64,000 nucleotides of DNA, from the NCBI GenBank assembly GCA_938020445.1, contig CALIIC010000093.1, positions 1 through 64,000 on the forward strand, read 5' to 3'. Shown here piece after piece: positions 5,094 through 34,822 of the stretch. The notes under the pieces were generated by a model that was not told where the DNA came from, searched no databases, and was given only the letters and a program-made list of their open reading frames with translations. The translations under genes and the position numbers were made by a program. How positions within the stretch are numbered: the stretch's first letter is position 1; the number at the start of each line of letters is the position of its first letter. This stretch comes from an uncultured Flavobacteriaceae bacterium (GTDB lineage Bacteria; Bacteroidota; Bacteroidia; Flavobacteriales; Flavobacteriaceae).

Positions 5094-5114
5094 CTGGCAA
5101 AGATAGGCGTTGCT

Positions 5115-5159
5115 TTCAAATACAAATACAAATTCAAACACAAATTCAAGTTCAAATTC
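5115..5159. repeat. CAAAYT/ACAAAT-type hexamer array
   Basis: TTCAAATACAAATACAAATTCAAACACAAATTCAAGTTCAAATTC. Confidence 0.8.
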
Positions 5160-5212
5160 GTAAAAGGAACATCCATAAGCGTTCAAACTACATAACCTTA
5201 GGGTTCTTTGTT

Positions 5213-5340
5213 TTCCTCTTTGTTCTCCTTTCTCTTTTCTCTTTCCTCTATTCTATATTCTCCATCCTCCGTTCTCTGTTCTCTTTAAGCTTTTCATCCT
5301 TTGTTCCCTCATCTTTTCCCTTCCTTTTCTTTCCTTCTCA
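5213..5340. repeat. Pyrimidine-rich degenerate heptamer array (NTTCTCT type)
   Basis: TTTCTCT TTTCTCT TTCCTCT ATTCTAT ATTCTCC ATCCTCC GTTCTCT GTTCTCT. Confidence 0.7.
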
Positions 5341-12168: not shown

Positions 12169-13140
12169 CTATTGGGACCAAGCCGTTGGCTTTCTTACCC
12201 ATTTGTGGTTGCGCAATTCGGTCATTAAAGCCTCTGACAAGCCTTTGCCATCACTTGTAGCAGTATTGGCCAATACATTGCGTGCTTTACGCATTCCGGG
12301 AATAACGGTACCGATGGTTTTGTTCATCGTAATAAAACGTAGGGCCATCTCGGCCATGGTCATTCCCTCTGGTACCAAGGGCCGCAGCGCATCGGCATGC
12401 GCCACACTCGACAAGAGGTTTTCTGGAACAAAATAAGTACCACGCCAATCGCCATCAGGAAAGGTCGTTTCCTTCGTAATATTCCCGGTGAGCGTACCTT
12501 CATCAAAAGGAACACGGGCAATTACACCGATGTCCAATTTTTCGCAAAGGGGAAAAAGAACGTCTTCCGGGTTTTGATCAAAAATGTTATAGATCACCTG
12601 TACCGCATCGATCATGCCCGTTTGCAACGCTTTGATACCATTTTCAGGCTCCCAACGATTCATACTGATGCCCATGGCAGCAATCTTCCCGGAAGTCTTT
12701 AGATCTTCAATGGCACGCTGCCACTCTTCGCGATTCGACCACCCATCGTCCCAGGTGTGAAACTGCATCAGGTCTAGCTGCTCCATCCCAAGATTTTTTA
12801 AGGTCTTTTCGGTAAAGGTGACAATATGCGAAGTGGGATACGACTCTTCAAAACGGTATTCAGGGCGGGCGGGCCATTTAAAATTCTTCGGGGGAATCTT
12901 ACTTGCCGTATATAGCTTCTTAGTGGGATGTCTTCGGATGAGCTGCCCTAAAAGTTCTTCACTGTGCCCCTCGCCATACCCCCAAGCGGTATCAAAAAAA
13001 GTGACGCCATTTTCTACGGCCAGATCCAATGACTTGGCAGACTGTGCATCGTCAGACTCCGTCCAACCAGCCATGCCCCACATACCGTATCCTATCTCGC
13101 TTATTTGCCAATCGGTTCTTCCAAATCTCCTGTATTTCAT
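12169..13140 (-). CDS. aldo/keto reductase
   Basis: MKYRRFGRTDWQISEIGYGMWGMAGW; FFDTAWGYGEGHSEELLG. Confidence 0.9.
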   Translation of the reverse strand: MKYRRFGRTDWQISEIGYGMWGMAGWTESDDAQSAKSLDLAVENGVTFFDTAWGYGEGHSEELLGQLIRRHPTKKLYTASKIPPKNFKWPARPEYRFEESYPTSHIVTFTEKTLKNLGMEQLDLMQFHTWDDGWSNREEWQRAIEDLKTSGKIAAMGISMNRWEPENGIKALQTGMIDAVQVIYNIFDQNPEDVLFPLCEKLDIGVIARVPFDEGTLTGNITKETTFPDGDWRGTYFVPENLLSSVAHADALRPLVPEGMTMAEMALRFITMNKTIGTVIPGMRKARNVLANTATSDGKGLSEALMTELRNHKWVRKPTAWSQ

Positions 13141-24703: not shown

Positions 24704-24792
24704 GGATCAAGGTTTTCAATACGACGTTTTTAAGCGAAAAATGTAACAGGACAAACCGTTTGTACAATCGTTTCAGTGAATTAGAGGTTGCA

Positions 24793-24864
24793 GGTTAGAG
24801 GTTAGAGGTTAGAGGTTAGAGGTTAGAGGTTAGAGGTTAGAGGTTAGAGGTTAGAGGTTAGAGG
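24793..24864. repeat. Perfect heptamer array (GGTTAGA)x10
   Basis: Ten consecutive identical 7-bp units. Confidence 0.97.
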
Positions 24865-24874
24865 AATAAATAAA

Positions 24875-25180
24875 TTCTAATACAAACGTCAAACTCAAAC
24901 TCAAATACACACGTCAAACTCAAACTCAAATACAAACGTCAAACTCAAACACAAGCGTCAAATTCAAAACTGATTACTGTTTACTGCCAACTGCTCACTG
25001 CTCACTGTTCACTGTTAATTGTTCATTGTTCATTGCAATACAAGTTCAAGCGCAAGAGTCAAAAGTGCAAGTTCAAACTCAAATTCAAACGTCAAACTCA
25101 AATACAAACACTAACGTCAAATTCAAAACTGAATACTGAATACTGTTTACTGCCAACTGCCAACTGCCCACTGCTCACTT
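24875..25180. repeat. Composite degenerate arrays: CAAACT hexamers / ACTGYYN heptamers / CAAACT / ACTGYYN
   Basis: CAAACTCAAACTCAAATACA...; CTCACTG CTCACTG TTCACTG TTAATTG TTCATTG TTCATTG; CAAATTCAAACGTCAAACT; ACTGTTT ACTGCCA ACTGCCA ACTGCCC ACTGCTC. Confidence 0.9.
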
Positions 25181-25185
25181 AGCCC

Positions 25186-26028
25186 TTACCGAAATGTCCA
25201 AGCAATAAAACGGCTTTTTTTATTTCCCTGTCCCATATCAACTACTTTCACCTCAGCGGGGTTTGTTTTATGTATGGAGCGTTTTATGGTCTTAAGGTGG
25301 TCTTTTTGTGAAACCAAAGCCGTAAACCAATGTACTTGTTCTTTGAAGTGAACACTTTCTTGCACCATTTTTTTCACAAAGCGTTCTTCCCCTCCCCTAT
25401 ACCATAATTCGTTCGCATTACCACCAAAGTTTTGGAGTGTCTTTTCTTGTAATCCAAGGTTTTTGACCTTGCGCTGGTTGCTACGCTGTGCTTCTTTTGC
25501 ACTCTTAAAGAAAGGGGGGTTACAAACAACCACATCGAATACATCTTCAGGTCTTATGATATGCTCAAAAATCGTATTCTTGAATTTTTGATGCCTCAGT
25601 GTTATACTTTTCAGGTTTGGGTTTGCATCAACAATGCTTTGTGCATGCCTTAGCGAAGCTACATCTGTTTCGCTAGCGGTACAATTCCAATTAAAATGGC
25701 ATGTACCCAAAATAGGATAGATCAGGTTCGCGCCGGTACCAATATCCAATAAATTTATGGATGCTTTCAACAATAAATCAGCCACATGTAGCAGGTAATC
25801 CAAACGACCTGGAATGGGCGGACAAAGATTGTTTTCAGGAATATCCCATTCAATCCTGTACCGTTCTTTTAGCAAGGCAGCGTTTAAGGCCTTTACCGCT
25901 TTTTGGTTTCCGAATTTAATTGTTTTAGTACCATAGTCGTTTACGAAAACATGGGTTCCCAAGGTATCGCTATACTGAACGAGGGTATCAAAATCGTATT
26001 CTGAAATAAAAGGGTTTTTAGGATGCAA
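25186..26028 (-). CDS. rlmF: 23S rRNA (adenine(1618)-N(6))-methyltransferase RlmF
   Basis: MHPKNPFISEYDFDTLV...WDIPENNLCPPIPGRLDYLLHVADLL; VCNPPFFKS NPPF motif. Confidence 0.88.
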   Translation of the reverse strand: MHPKNPFISEYDFDTLVQYSDTLGTHVFVNDYGTKTIKFGNQKAVKALNAALLKERYRIEWDIPENNLCPPIPGRLDYLLHVADLLLKASINLLDIGTGANLIYPILGTCHFNWNCTASETDVASLRHAQSIVDANPNLKSITLRHQKFKNTIFEHIIRPEDVFDVVVCNPPFFKSAKEAQRSNQRKVKNLGLQEKTLQNFGGNANELWYRGGEERFVKKMVQESVHFKEQVHWFTALVSQKDHLKTIKRSIHKTNPAEVKVVDMGQGNKKSRFIAWTFR

Positions 26029-26785: not shown

Positions 26786-27409
26786 TTATTTCTTTTCTTC
26801 AGCAAGTGCATTCTCTACCAAGAAAATGGTATACTTATAGGTTAGCTCCGAAGCTTTCTTTCGAAGGCGAAAGTAACTATACATTGAAAATGCCCCCAAG
26901 GCCATGCATGGAAATAACAGATACCAGGAAGGGTTCATCCCTCCTTCGCGAGGAATCAAAAACAAAATCGCCAAGAAGACCGAAATGACCACTAGGCTTC
27001 GAAAGAACTTTGAATTGGCCATTTGTAAATTGATTTGCCCTATAATGCTTGCCTCACTTTGAATTACCTTATAGGTCGCCCAATCTAGGTCGCCCAGCGA
27101 ACTCGCCAGACGTTGTTGGCGCATCTCTTTAATCCGTTCTAAGAATGGGCGGTCCTGTTTGTCTATCCACCGGTCATAGAAAGGCTTGTCCATCAAAGAC
27201 CCGATTTCCCGAATAAGGTGCCCAAATAAAAAGGCATATAGCAACAACACGGCCATTGCATAATTCCCTTCCGGATCATCAATACCAAAAACAGCCGACA
27301 CCTTAGACTTGAATTGAATATACAGCACGACGGATAGAATACCACCCGGAAGCAAAATCGAAAAGAAATCAACAATACCGATAAAGAAATTACTGGGTTT
27401 AAAATCCAT
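26786..27409 (-). CDS. hypothetical membrane protein
   Basis: Intact ORF with several predicted TM helices. Confidence 0.6.
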   Translation of the reverse strand: MDFKPSNFFIGIVDFFSILLPGGILSVVLYIQFKSKVSAVFGIDDPEGNYAMAVLLLYAFLFGHLIREIGSLMDKPFYDRWIDKQDRPFLERIKEMRQQRLASSLGDLDWATYKVIQSEASIIGQINLQMANSKFFRSLVVISVFLAILFLIPREGGMNPSWYLLFPCMALGAFSMYSYFRLRKKASELTYKYTIFLVENALAEEKK

Positions 27410-27420
27410 CTTAGGTTGGT

Positions 27421-27463
27421 GTTAGATGTTAGATGTTAGATGTTAGATGTTAGATGTTAGATG
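27421..27463. repeat. Perfect heptamer array (GTTAGAT)x6
   Basis: Six consecutive identical 7-bp units. Confidence 0.96.
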
Positions 27464-27469
27464 AAAAAA

Positions 27470-27648
27470 CAAATTCAAGAGCAAGTGTCAAGCTCAAACT
27501 CAAAAAACTGCTTACCGTTTACTGTTCATTGTTAATTGCTAATTGTTCATTGCTACTTGTCTAAAGAATAAATGAAAAAAGTAAATTCAAACACAAACGT
27601 CAAATTCAAACACATAATTTTTCACTGTTCACTGTTCACTGATTACTA
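27470..27648. repeat. Composite degenerate arrays: CAAACT / ACTGYYN / CAAACT / ACTGYYN
   Basis: Same module order and strand as 24875-25180. Confidence 0.85.
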
Positions 27649-27807
27649 CCTTGTCAGGTCGAGTCGAGATCTACTTGGCATGTTCCTAGGCTTTCGACTG
27701 CGCTCAAGGTGACAATGCGAAAAACAAGAAAGACCGTCACGTGTAAGGAACAAAGACAAAGGGCCGTGATACTGAAAGACAAAATATTGAATTAAAAATT
27801 AAATCCA

Positions 27808-27898
27808 TAATTTTTCACTGGTCACTGTTCACTGTTCACTGTTAATTGTTAATTGTTCATTGCTAATTGTTCACTGTTAACTGCCCATTGTAACCTGT
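27808..27898. repeat. ACTGYYN-type heptamer array
   Basis: TTCACTG GTCACTG TTCACTG TTCACTG TTAATTG TTAATTG TTCATTG CTAATTG TTCACTG TTAACTG CCCATTG. Confidence 0.9.
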
Positions 27899-32138: not shown

Positions 32139-33023
32139 TTACCCTTTCGCCCTATGCCGCTCTCTGGCCAATAGCGTATTTTTCAGGAGCATGGCGATGG
32201 TCATGGGACCGACACCTCCTGGAACCGGCGTAATAAAAGAGGCCTTTTTACGCACATTTTCGAAGTCAACGTCTCCCGTAATATAGTAGCCTTTAGGCCT
32301 GGTTTCATCGGGAACACGCGTAATGCCTACATCGATTACTACGGCATCATCTTTTACCATTTCGGCCTTTAAGAAATTGGGCACGCCCAAGGCAGAAATG
32401 ACAATATCGGCCTGCGAAATAATTTGAGTGATATTTTTGGTATGACTATGTGTCAAAGTAACGGTTGAATTCCCAGGCCATCCTTTACGTCCCATCAAAA
32501 TGCTCATAGGCCGCCCTACAATATGGCTACGACCAATGACCACGGTATGCTTCCCTTTGGTATCTACTTTATAACGTTCCAACAATTCTAAAATTCCAAA
32601 GGGTGTGGCCGGGATGAACGTACTCATATCCAAGGCCATTTTACCAAAGTTGGCGGGATGAAACCCATCTACATCTTTATCAGGATGGATCGCCATGATT
32701 ACCTTTTGGGTGTCGATCTGCTCGGGCAACGGAAGCTGTACGATAAACCCATCGATGTCATCATTGGCATTCAGTTCTTCGATCTTTTTCAATAGTTCCA
32801 ACTCAGAAGTAGTGCTAGGCAATTGCACCAGGGTAGATTCAAAACCAACCCGCTCGCAGGATCGTACCTTACTACCCACATACGTAAGGCTGGCACCATC
32901 ACTTCCTACGATTACAGCAGCAAGATGTGGCACCTTTTCACCGCGTTCTTTCATTTTCGAAACCGTCTCTTTGATTTCTTCCTTGATTTGGTTCGATACT
33001 TTTTTTCCGTCTAGTATTTCCAT
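32139..33023 (-). CDS. folD: bifunctional methylenetetrahydrofolate dehydrogenase/cyclohydrolase FolD
   Basis: YVGSKVRSCERVGFES; DGFIVQLPLPEQID; VVIGRSHIVGRPMSILM; TPVPGGVGPMTIAMLL. Confidence 0.95.
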   Translation of the reverse strand: MEILDGKKVSNQIKEEIKETVSKMKERGEKVPHLAAVIVGSDGASLTYVGSKVRSCERVGFESTLVQLPSTTSELELLKKIEELNANDDIDGFIVQLPLPEQIDTQKVIMAIHPDKDVDGFHPANFGKMALDMSTFIPATPFGILELLERYKVDTKGKHTVVIGRSHIVGRPMSILMGRKGWPGNSTVTLTHSHTKNITQIISQADIVISALGVPNFLKAEMVKDDAVVIDVGITRVPDETRPKGYYITGDVDFENVRKKASFITPVPGGVGPMTIAMLLKNTLLARERHRAKG

Positions 33024-33026
33024 TTT

Positions 33027-33056
33027 AGTATTCAGTTGCCAGTGCCAGTTAGCAGT
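33027..33056. repeat. ACTGCCA-family heptamers, arm 1 (inverted relative to 33456-33480)
   Basis: CAGTTGCCAGTGCCAGTTAGCAGT. Confidence 0.7.
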
Positions 33057-33059
33057 ATG

Positions 33060-33425
33060 CTATACTCCAAACTTAGCCGGGTTAGTAATCATATATTGAA
33101 TTAGTTTGCCTACTTCATTGCTTTGCTGTTGCAAGGTTTTTTCTATTTCAGCAGTAATATATTGACAAGAAAGTGCAAATTGCAACCATACTTGTGTTTC
33201 CGAATTTTCTCCATCAGCATCGGTCAACTTGCTAATAAAGTGTTTTACATATCTTCTTTTTCGATACGGCTCCGCTATATTAGAACAAACCGAATGAGAA
33301 GACCTTCTAATCTGATCAGTAAGGGAGTAGCTTTCTTCCTTGGGAAATGATTTTGTCAACTCAAAAATCTTTATTGACAAAAAAAAGCCTTTTGATATGC
33401 CAACAATTTTTGAAAACTCATACAT
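33060..33425 (-). CDS. four-helix-bundle protein (S23 / rRNA intervening-sequence-protein-like)
   Basis: 121 aa; LTKSFPKEESYSLTDQIRRSSHSVCSNIAEPYRKRR...HFISKLTDADGENSETQVWLQFAL. Confidence 0.9.
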   Translation of the reverse strand: MYEFSKIVGISKGFFLSIKIFELTKSFPKEESYSLTDQIRRSSHSVCSNIAEPYRKRRYVKHFISKLTDADGENSETQVWLQFALSCQYITAEIEKTLQQQSNEVGKLIQYMITNPAKFGV

Positions 33426-33455
33426 CTTTTTTACAAATACTCTTTACTAAACTTG

Positions 33456-33480
33456 TTTGCAACTGCCAGCTGCCAACTTA
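33456..33480. repeat. ACTGCCA-family heptamers, arm 2
   Basis: GCAACTGCCAGCTGCCAACTTA, ending ~5 bp from ffh stop codon. Confidence 0.7.
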
Positions 33481-33484
33481 GTAA

Positions 33485-34822
33485 TTACTTCATCCCCTTC
33501 ATACCGCCCATCATCTGCATCATTTTTTTACCGCCGCCTCCTTGCATCATCTTCATCATCTTGCCCATTTGATCGAACTGTTTCAACAATTGGTTCACTT
33601 CCTGAATGGTTCTTCCACTTCCTTTGGCAATCCTCTTTTTTCGACTTGCATTTAGTTTCGCAGGCGTGGAACGTTCGTCCGGCGTCATTGAATGAATGAT
33701 CGCTTCAATATGTTTAAAGGCATCATCGTCGATATCAAGTCCTTTGAGCGCTTTACCGGCACCGGGAATCATCCCCATAAGGTCTTTGATATTCCCCATT
33801 TTTTTGATCTGCTGAATCTGGCTCAGAAAGTCATCAAAGCCAAACTTGTTTTTGGCGATTTTCTTTTGAATCTTTCGGGCCTCTTCCTCGTCGAACTGTT
33901 CTTGCGCCCGTTCTACCAGAGAGATAACGTCTCCCATACCCAGGATACGATCCGCCATTCGCGAAGGGTGGAACACATCAATAGCCTCCATTTTTTCCCC
34001 CGTTCCTATAAACTTGATCGGTTTATCTACCACAGATTTGATAGAAATAGCGGCTCCTCCACGGGTATCTCCGTCCAATTTTGTTAGGATGACCCCATCA
34101 AAATTCAAAATATCGTTGAAGGCCTTTGCTGTATTTACGGCATCTTGCCCCGTCATTGCATCCACTACAAAAAGGGTCTCTTCTGGCTGTATGGCTTTGT
34201 GAATATCCGATATTTCGTTCATCATCTTCTCATCCACGGCCAAGCGACCGGCGGTATCGATGATAACAACATTATGGCCATTCGCCTTTGCATGTGCAAT
34301 TCCCGCTTGGGCAATGGCAACCGGGTTCTTGTTTTCCTTATCGGAATACACCTCTACGTTTATCTGCCCTCCTACCACATGTAATTGATCAATTGCTGCG
34401 GGGCGGTATACATCACAGGCAACCAATAAAGGGTTTTTGCTCTTCTTCGTCTTTAAAAAATTGGCAAGCTTTCCGGAAAAAGTGGTCTTACCCGAACCTT
34501 GTAAGCCTGACATAAGGATGATCGATGGGGTACCTGAAAGGTTGATACCCTCGGTTTCCCCTCCCATAAGCTCGGTGAGTTCGTCCTTGACGATCTTTAC
34601 CATGAGCTGCCCCGGTTGTAAGGTGGTCAATACATTCTGTCCCAAGGCTTTTTCCTTGACTCGGTTGGTAAATTCCTTGGCTATCTTGAAGTTGACATCC
34701 GCATCCAATAGTGCTCGCCGCACTTCCTTGGTTGTTTCTGCAACATTAATTTCGGTTATTTGGCCATGTCCTTTTAGTACATGAAGGGCCTTATCGAGCT
34801 TTTCGCTTAAATTATCGAACAT
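33485..34822 (-). CDS. ffh: signal recognition particle protein Ffh
   Basis: GLQGSGKTTFSGKLA, DTAGRL, TKLDGDTRGG; Met-rich C-terminal M domain. Confidence 0.96.
   Translation of the reverse strand: MFDNLSEKLDKALHVLKGHGQITEINVAETTKEVRRALLDADVNFKIAKEFTNRVKEKALGQNVLTTLQPGQLMVKIVKDELTELMGGETEGINLSGTPSIILMSGLQGSGKTTFSGKLANFLKTKKSKNPLLVACDVYRPAAIDQLHVVGGQINVEVYSDKENKNPVAIAQAGIAHAKANGHNVVIIDTAGRLAVDEKMMNEISDIHKAIQPEETLFVVDAMTGQDAVNTAKAFNDILNFDGVILTKLDGDTRGGAAISIKSVVDKPIKFIGTGEKMEAIDVFHPSRMADRILGMGDVISLVERAQEQFDEEEARKIQKKIAKNKFGFDDFLSQIQQIKKMGNIKDLMGMIPGAGKALKGLDIDDDAFKHIEAIIHSMTPDERSTPAKLNASRKKRIAKGSGRTIQEVNQLLKQFDQMGKMMKMMQGGGGKKMMQMMGGMKGMK

Follow-up and report, generated by a model that had tools for sequence, protein, structure and literature searches.

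The 64,000-nucleotide stretch analyzed here (hereafter the window; positions 1 to 64,000 of contig CALIIC010000093.1 in assembly GCA_938020445.1, from an uncultured Flavobacteriaceae bacterium) contains a 121-aa open reading frame (ORF) between ffh and folD. An earlier note had assigned this ORF to the S23 four-helix-bundle type and interpreted it, together with the inverted ACTGCCA heptamers on either side, as a mobile relative of the intervening sequences (IVSs) of rRNA genes. To our knowledge, S23/IVP proteins are common in bacterial genomes and have no known role, and rRNA IVSs have gone unexplained for decades. What, then, is such a gene doing in an operon spacer? We consider it likely that the unit at ~33034-33480 represents one copy of a selfish cassette of the IVS type, in which an S23 gene lies between two inverted, imperfect heptamer arrays whose unit is specific to the locus. 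The feature is genuine and more extensive than the first description suggested, and it is best filed with the IVS/S23 elements, yet without the rRNA location of the classical IVSs.

The assignment of the ORF was borne out by profile searches, in which it exceeded the curated cut-offs of both PF05635 (1.7e-28, 99.3 bits, cut-off 33.8) and TIGR02436 (4.7e-28, 97.6 bits, cut-off 24), placing the protein within the S23/IVP family; solved structures among its relatives are 2rld and 2gsc. The gene lies on the reverse strand at 33060..33425, with its start at 33425 and its stop at 33060, and this ORF of ~360 nt within a ~430-470 nt unit has the dimensions of an IVS. The gaps separating it from ffh and folD are both occupied by heptamer arms, as had been described, with CAGTTGCCAGTGCCAGTTAGCAGT near 33034-33057 and TTGCAACTGCCAGCTGCCAACTTA near 33457-33480. 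Read on the gene strand, the upstream (5’) arm (33457..33480) is TAAGTTGGCAGCTGGCAGTTGCAA, consists of AGTTGGC-type heptamers, and begins right past the ffh stop codon in a gap that contains a lag-7 run, while the downstream (3’) arm (33034..33057) is the heptamer-type ACTGCTAACTGGCACTGGCAACTG and ends ~10 nt short of the folD start. A comparison of the two 120-nt flanks of the gene yielded an inverted match of 13 against a shuffle mean of 7.3 (z 4.8; 0/200 dinucleotide shuffles as high), in agreement with the claimed inversion of the arms, but the direct match of 14 was equally good in this decayed copy and the window by itself is therefore no proof of inversion. That proof comes from the orthologues. 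At the ffh-folD site of G006, AGTTGGCAGTGGCAGTTGGCAGTAA on one side faces its reverse complement on the opposite side to form a 25-nt near-perfect inverted pair, and the G001 orthologue has a similar inverted arm pair. The complementary, stem-capable ends expected of an IVS are found in the family, being weak in the window copy and near-perfect in the G006 orthologue.

We examined the arms across 211 distinct S23 loci, of which 31 come from the genus and 90 from the phylum Bacteroidota; the remaining 90 stem from a wide genome scan with representatives of Acidobacteriota, Planctomycetes, Chloroflexi, Nitrospirota, and Proteobacteria, among others. At each locus, we matched the 120 nt preceding the gene to the reverse complement of the 120 nt that follow, and 364 genes served as controls. 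Inverted flank complementarity at z>3 was present at 58, 48, and 73% of the loci (genus, phylum, and wide set, respectively) versus 2% of the controls (Fisher p about 2e-60); direct matches at z>3 occurred at 16, 11, and 20%. The median arm score was 17 with the arm’s own partner versus 9 with arms from other loci, and the best period was 7 in 110 of the 127 clear cases, with an identity of 0.52 at lag 7, 0.49 at lag 14, and 0.27 at other lags. Homologues at other loci do carry the same kind of arms, a point that the earlier note had proposed to test, usually with a period of 7 and a locus-specific unit. The unit length in operon cassettes has a median of 474 nt.

The arms have no sequence in common; all that they share is a period of 7 nt and, within any one copy, complementarity to each other. 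The window assembly (G000) encodes five S23 genes, each in an intergenic spacer with short-period arrays on both sides, and the five copies have five different units: RTACTNN, AGTAANN, the octamer-like ACTAATTC, ACTGCCA, and the hexamer-like AAACTC. The octamer-like copy (L003) is cut by an internal stop in the 211-locus test and had its arms aligned separately. Among these five copies there is no single conserved terminal repeat of the sort common to the copies of a DNA transposon or a miniature inverted-repeat transposable element. Therefore, the proposal that the arms are the terminal structure of the element holds as regards per-copy complementarity and periodicity, but not in the sense of a sequence common to all copies as in a DNA transposon. 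The ACTGCCA heptamer is present in the arms here but also found in gene-free arrays, with other loci using other units. It occurs 14 times across the window versus 5.7 expected by chance, an excess due to the other gene-free heptamer arrays, and the heptamer sequence alone is thus no marker of a cassette. Further array stretches in the window are ~420 nt of gene-free short-period arrays at 24775-25193 (GAGGTTA x11, CAAACTC-type hexamers, and two ACTGNNN heptamer arrays, not inverted), another gene-free composite array at 27405-27891 (repeated TTAGATG, hexamers, and ACTGTTC/TTGTTAA heptamers), and, at 5104-5296, an array of hexamers that gives way to one of pyrimidine-rich heptamers lacking an inverted partner.

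The cassettes are also placed in a characteristic manner. Among cassettes with close neighbors, 149/178 (84%) are co-directional with both of them, versus 138/276 controls (50%; p 9e-14), and the period-7 signal extends from the stop codon of the upstream gene to the start codon of the downstream one. The upstream stop codon is TAG in 42% of the Bacteroidota and 55% of the wide loci versus 20% of control genes, indicating that the first repeat unit frequently takes in this codon. The window copy follows the same layout, with the upstream neighbor ffh (33485..34822; orthologues in 10/10 congeners) and the downstream neighbor folD (32139..33023) both on the reverse strand as well. A cassette of this type would insert, or be retained, in the gap that separates the stop codon of one operon gene from the following start codon, and would point the way the operon is transcribed. 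It would then be transcribed with the operon, its arms would pair to form a stem that holds the S23 ORF in its loop, and cleavage of that stem, presumably by RNase III as in 23S rRNA IVSs, would free the S23 message with little harm to the neighboring genes. The S23 protein itself may act upon the element RNA or a copy of it during spread.

Is the unit mobile, or could S23 simply be an ordinary vertically inherited gene, with arms that are regulatory stem-loops or simple-sequence noise? S23 genes evolve under purifying selection (omega 0.02-0.14 where it could be measured; pS 0.79 and pN 0.24 between the window gene and its G001 orthologue) and the gene is old at ffh-folD, as such a gene would be, but its copies are patchy, with 0-8 per congener, and the arms far exceed the controls. 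The fadJ-fadA site also argues against this reading, as it is cleanly empty in four congeners, where the two genes are 3-26 bp apart without arms. It is occupied by one S23 type in G000, G004, and G009, by a related type with different arms in G006, and by another S23 lineage with other arms in G008. These genes do not form one clade (approximately unbiased (AU) test, p 0.002), and the site has been occupied recurrently and independently. Since its spacers are either empty or hold another lineage with other arms, gene and arms act as one unit. We therefore regard a non-mobile S23 gene as highly improbable. At ruvC-hemW, G004 similarly has a bAvd-like S23 gene with CAATTAN arms, while other species have S23 genes with AGTNNNN arms. 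A jump from ruvC-hemW to ffh-folD was considered as well, but the two S23 sets are sister or nested (joint clade 100/100) and a single ruvC clade survives the AU test (p 0.69). Neither direction nor nesting is therefore claimed, and the nesting in the FastTree topology is not relied on.

The ffh-folD site itself is less clean. Among ten congeners, the gene is intact in two (G000 and G001); G006 has a pseudogene whose arms are near-perfect, and G008 has a remnant. By inspection, without scoring, G002 and G007 may retain small traces of the last codons of the gene, which is not recognizable in the other four. This mixture indicates that the element at ffh-folD is old and decaying rather than freshly inserted. 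The spacer whose alignment across relatives the earlier note had proposed is thus not a clean presence/absence site. The interpretation as a mobile IVS relative in an operon spacer is supported overall, and neither of the outcomes named beforehand as refuting it, a gene present in all relatives with normal divergence or homologues elsewhere lacking arms, came up. Its mobility is inferred from these patterns; neither an enzyme nor a recent event was found. S23 copies reach 16 per genome, and 117/149 Bacteroidota genomes are positive. Arms also accompany 3/5 cyanobacterial plasmid copies (Nostoc sp. MS1 NZ_AP023442.1, Tolypothrix NZ_CP050442.1, and Leptolyngbya NZ_CP046156.1), and a further plasmid locus (L320, Oscillatoria NC_019730.1) has GAGAGGG-type arrays around its S23 gene that are direct, not inverted. 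A single query for S23 in phages gave no match.

Similar arms without a gene raise the question of which came first. At atpA-atpG, S23 with arms is present in G004 and G009, while the spacers of G008 (L325) and G000 (L326) hold a gene-less heptamer hairpin of ~76 nt that begins at the atpA stop codon; its arms are near-perfect in G008, and its minimum free energy z-scores are -7.2 (G008) and -4.0 (G000). Likewise, inverted heptamer-like arms enclose a gene-free interval in the spacers between fadA and acd (acyl-CoA dehydrogenase) of G000, G004, G009, and G006, a position that holds S23 or is empty in other congeners. Intergenic period-7 runs numbered 23 in 600 kb from six S23-rich genomes versus 2 in 505 kb from S23-free genomes, the taxa not being phylogeny-matched. 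Only 7/70 gene-free period-7 runs had an inverted partner, and inverted pairing thus marks cassettes and hairpins, not every array. At L275, inverted heptamer arms ~390 nt apart (12636-13074) have no S23 match between them, and one arm adjoins the start of a dihydrolipoyl-dehydrogenase-like gene. It could be argued from such gene-less hairpins, from the abundance of gene-free arrays in S23-bearing genomes, and from the fact that rRNA IVSs take the place of natural hairpin loops that heptamer arrays arose first, by slippage in operon spacers, and that S23 later inserted into the hairpin loop, in which case the arms would belong to the site. However, the empty fadJ-fadA sites have no array, the arms follow the protein lineage, and two S23 subfamilies have two arm types at ruvC-hemW, all of which make this order of events unlikely.

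If the arms instead belong to the cassette, what moves it? Surveys of S23 genomes for RVT_1 and Y1_Tnp identified no mobilizing enzyme. A reverse transcriptase acting in trans was ruled out as a requirement by the S23-rich, near-complete genomes G037, G133, and G006, all of which are without RVT_1. One genome, G111, has 19 reverse transcriptase matches, many with equal scores, which suggests a recent spread of copies, for example of group II introns. Alternatively, a DNA transposase acting in trans, such as the Y1/HUH enzymes that act on hairpins, might move the arm-bounded DNA with S23 as a passenger or accessory. Y1_Tnp was found in about 93/117 S23-positive versus about 13/32 S23-free genomes (p 4.5e-5, from counts read off two lists), and the arm mismatches are strand-symmetric, as expected of a DNA process. 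Despite this association, Y1_Tnp is absent from at least 12 named S23-positive genomes and from complete S23-rich genomes such as G037 with its 9 copies, and thus was rejected as a requirement. The arms also offer no common sequence for an enzyme to recognize, and the operon orientation bias would be explained only by selection. We therefore consider transposition of this kind quite doubtful, and favor the IVS-type cassette that would be excised from the operon transcript.

Besides the missing enzyme, several observations count against that cassette. Arm mismatches show no excess of G-U over A-C (158 vs 181, p 0.23) and consequently no sign of RNA-level selection upon arm pairing. The fold of the entire window element, which the earlier note had proposed to inspect, is no better than that of shuffles (z -1.1), yet the arms are paired in the best fold. 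Depending upon the set, 27-52% of loci fall below z>3, owing to decay, misplaced starts, or a true lack of arms. Lastly, although arm similarity tracks protein similarity (Mantel r 0.24, 0/500 permutations as high), both this correlation and the array statistics are confounded by ancestry.

Should operon-spacer cassettes with heptamer arms account for most S23 genes, three matters would merge into one testable question: what the protein does, how IVS-mediated rRNA fragmentation originated, and where many of the heptamer arrays in bacterial genomes come from. With such cassettes, core operons, such as those for ATP synthase, fatty acid oxidation, and ffh-folD, would also contain a potential site of RNA cleavage.

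How do these cassettes compare with known systems? The Avd proteins of diversity-generating retroelements (bAvd, PF22296) are homologous four-helix bundles, and the window protein scores just above the bAvd cut-off (2e-10, 41.5 bits, cut-off 40). However, it reaches only 32.2 bits against the NCBI Avd equivalog cut-off of 80, and unlike those systems, no reverse transcriptase (RVT_1) was found in its genome, which is 82% complete. REPIN/ERIC-type elements are likewise short inverted-repeat units in operon spacers that also occur without a gene, but the cassettes have heptamer arrays with no conserved consensus, and most copies studied have an S23 gene. The heptanucleotide arrays of cyanobacteria and the TAACTGA arrays of Beggiatoaceae and Bacteroidetes are also seven-base intergenic arrays, occur in overlapping phyla, and are often near start codons, but they are direct repeats of one fixed heptamer reported with no mention of S23 (PMC4679880), whereas those described here are inverted pairs of variable units around S23. 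A search of open-access papers found none that connects heptamer arms to S23 genes located outside rRNA. The closest counterparts are the 23S rRNA IVSs of Coxiella burnetii, Leptospira, and Brucella, which have the same protein family and a loop ORF between complementary ends. In Coxiella, the IVS is excised by RNase III and its complementary ends form a stem, with tandem GACAGAT heptamers of variable copy number before the S23 ORF and the RNase III cut at the first repeat (PMC4990558). These heptamers tie the operon cassettes to the rRNA IVSs, and from the shared anatomy we infer that a stem around the ORF and its excision would apply to the cassettes as well. The Coxiella IVS is similar in length (428 nt vs the median of 474 nt), but its protein is decaying, whereas S23 is under purifying selection here. 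Unlike rRNA IVSs, the cassettes lie between protein-coding operon genes, in many copies and with an arm unit for each locus; no Rfam rRNA match was found near the ffh-folD spacer or at 20 other S23 loci. The cassette is thus an S23/IVS type of element in operon spacers, with a mirror-image layout that had until now been noted only inside rRNA genes. The chances seem about even that S23 genes as a whole are a phylum-spanning class of mobile elements with inverted, locus-specific heptamer arrays as ends, kept complementary within each copy, of which gene-less hairpins would be the non-autonomous forms and rRNA IVSs the small subset that landed in rRNA helices.
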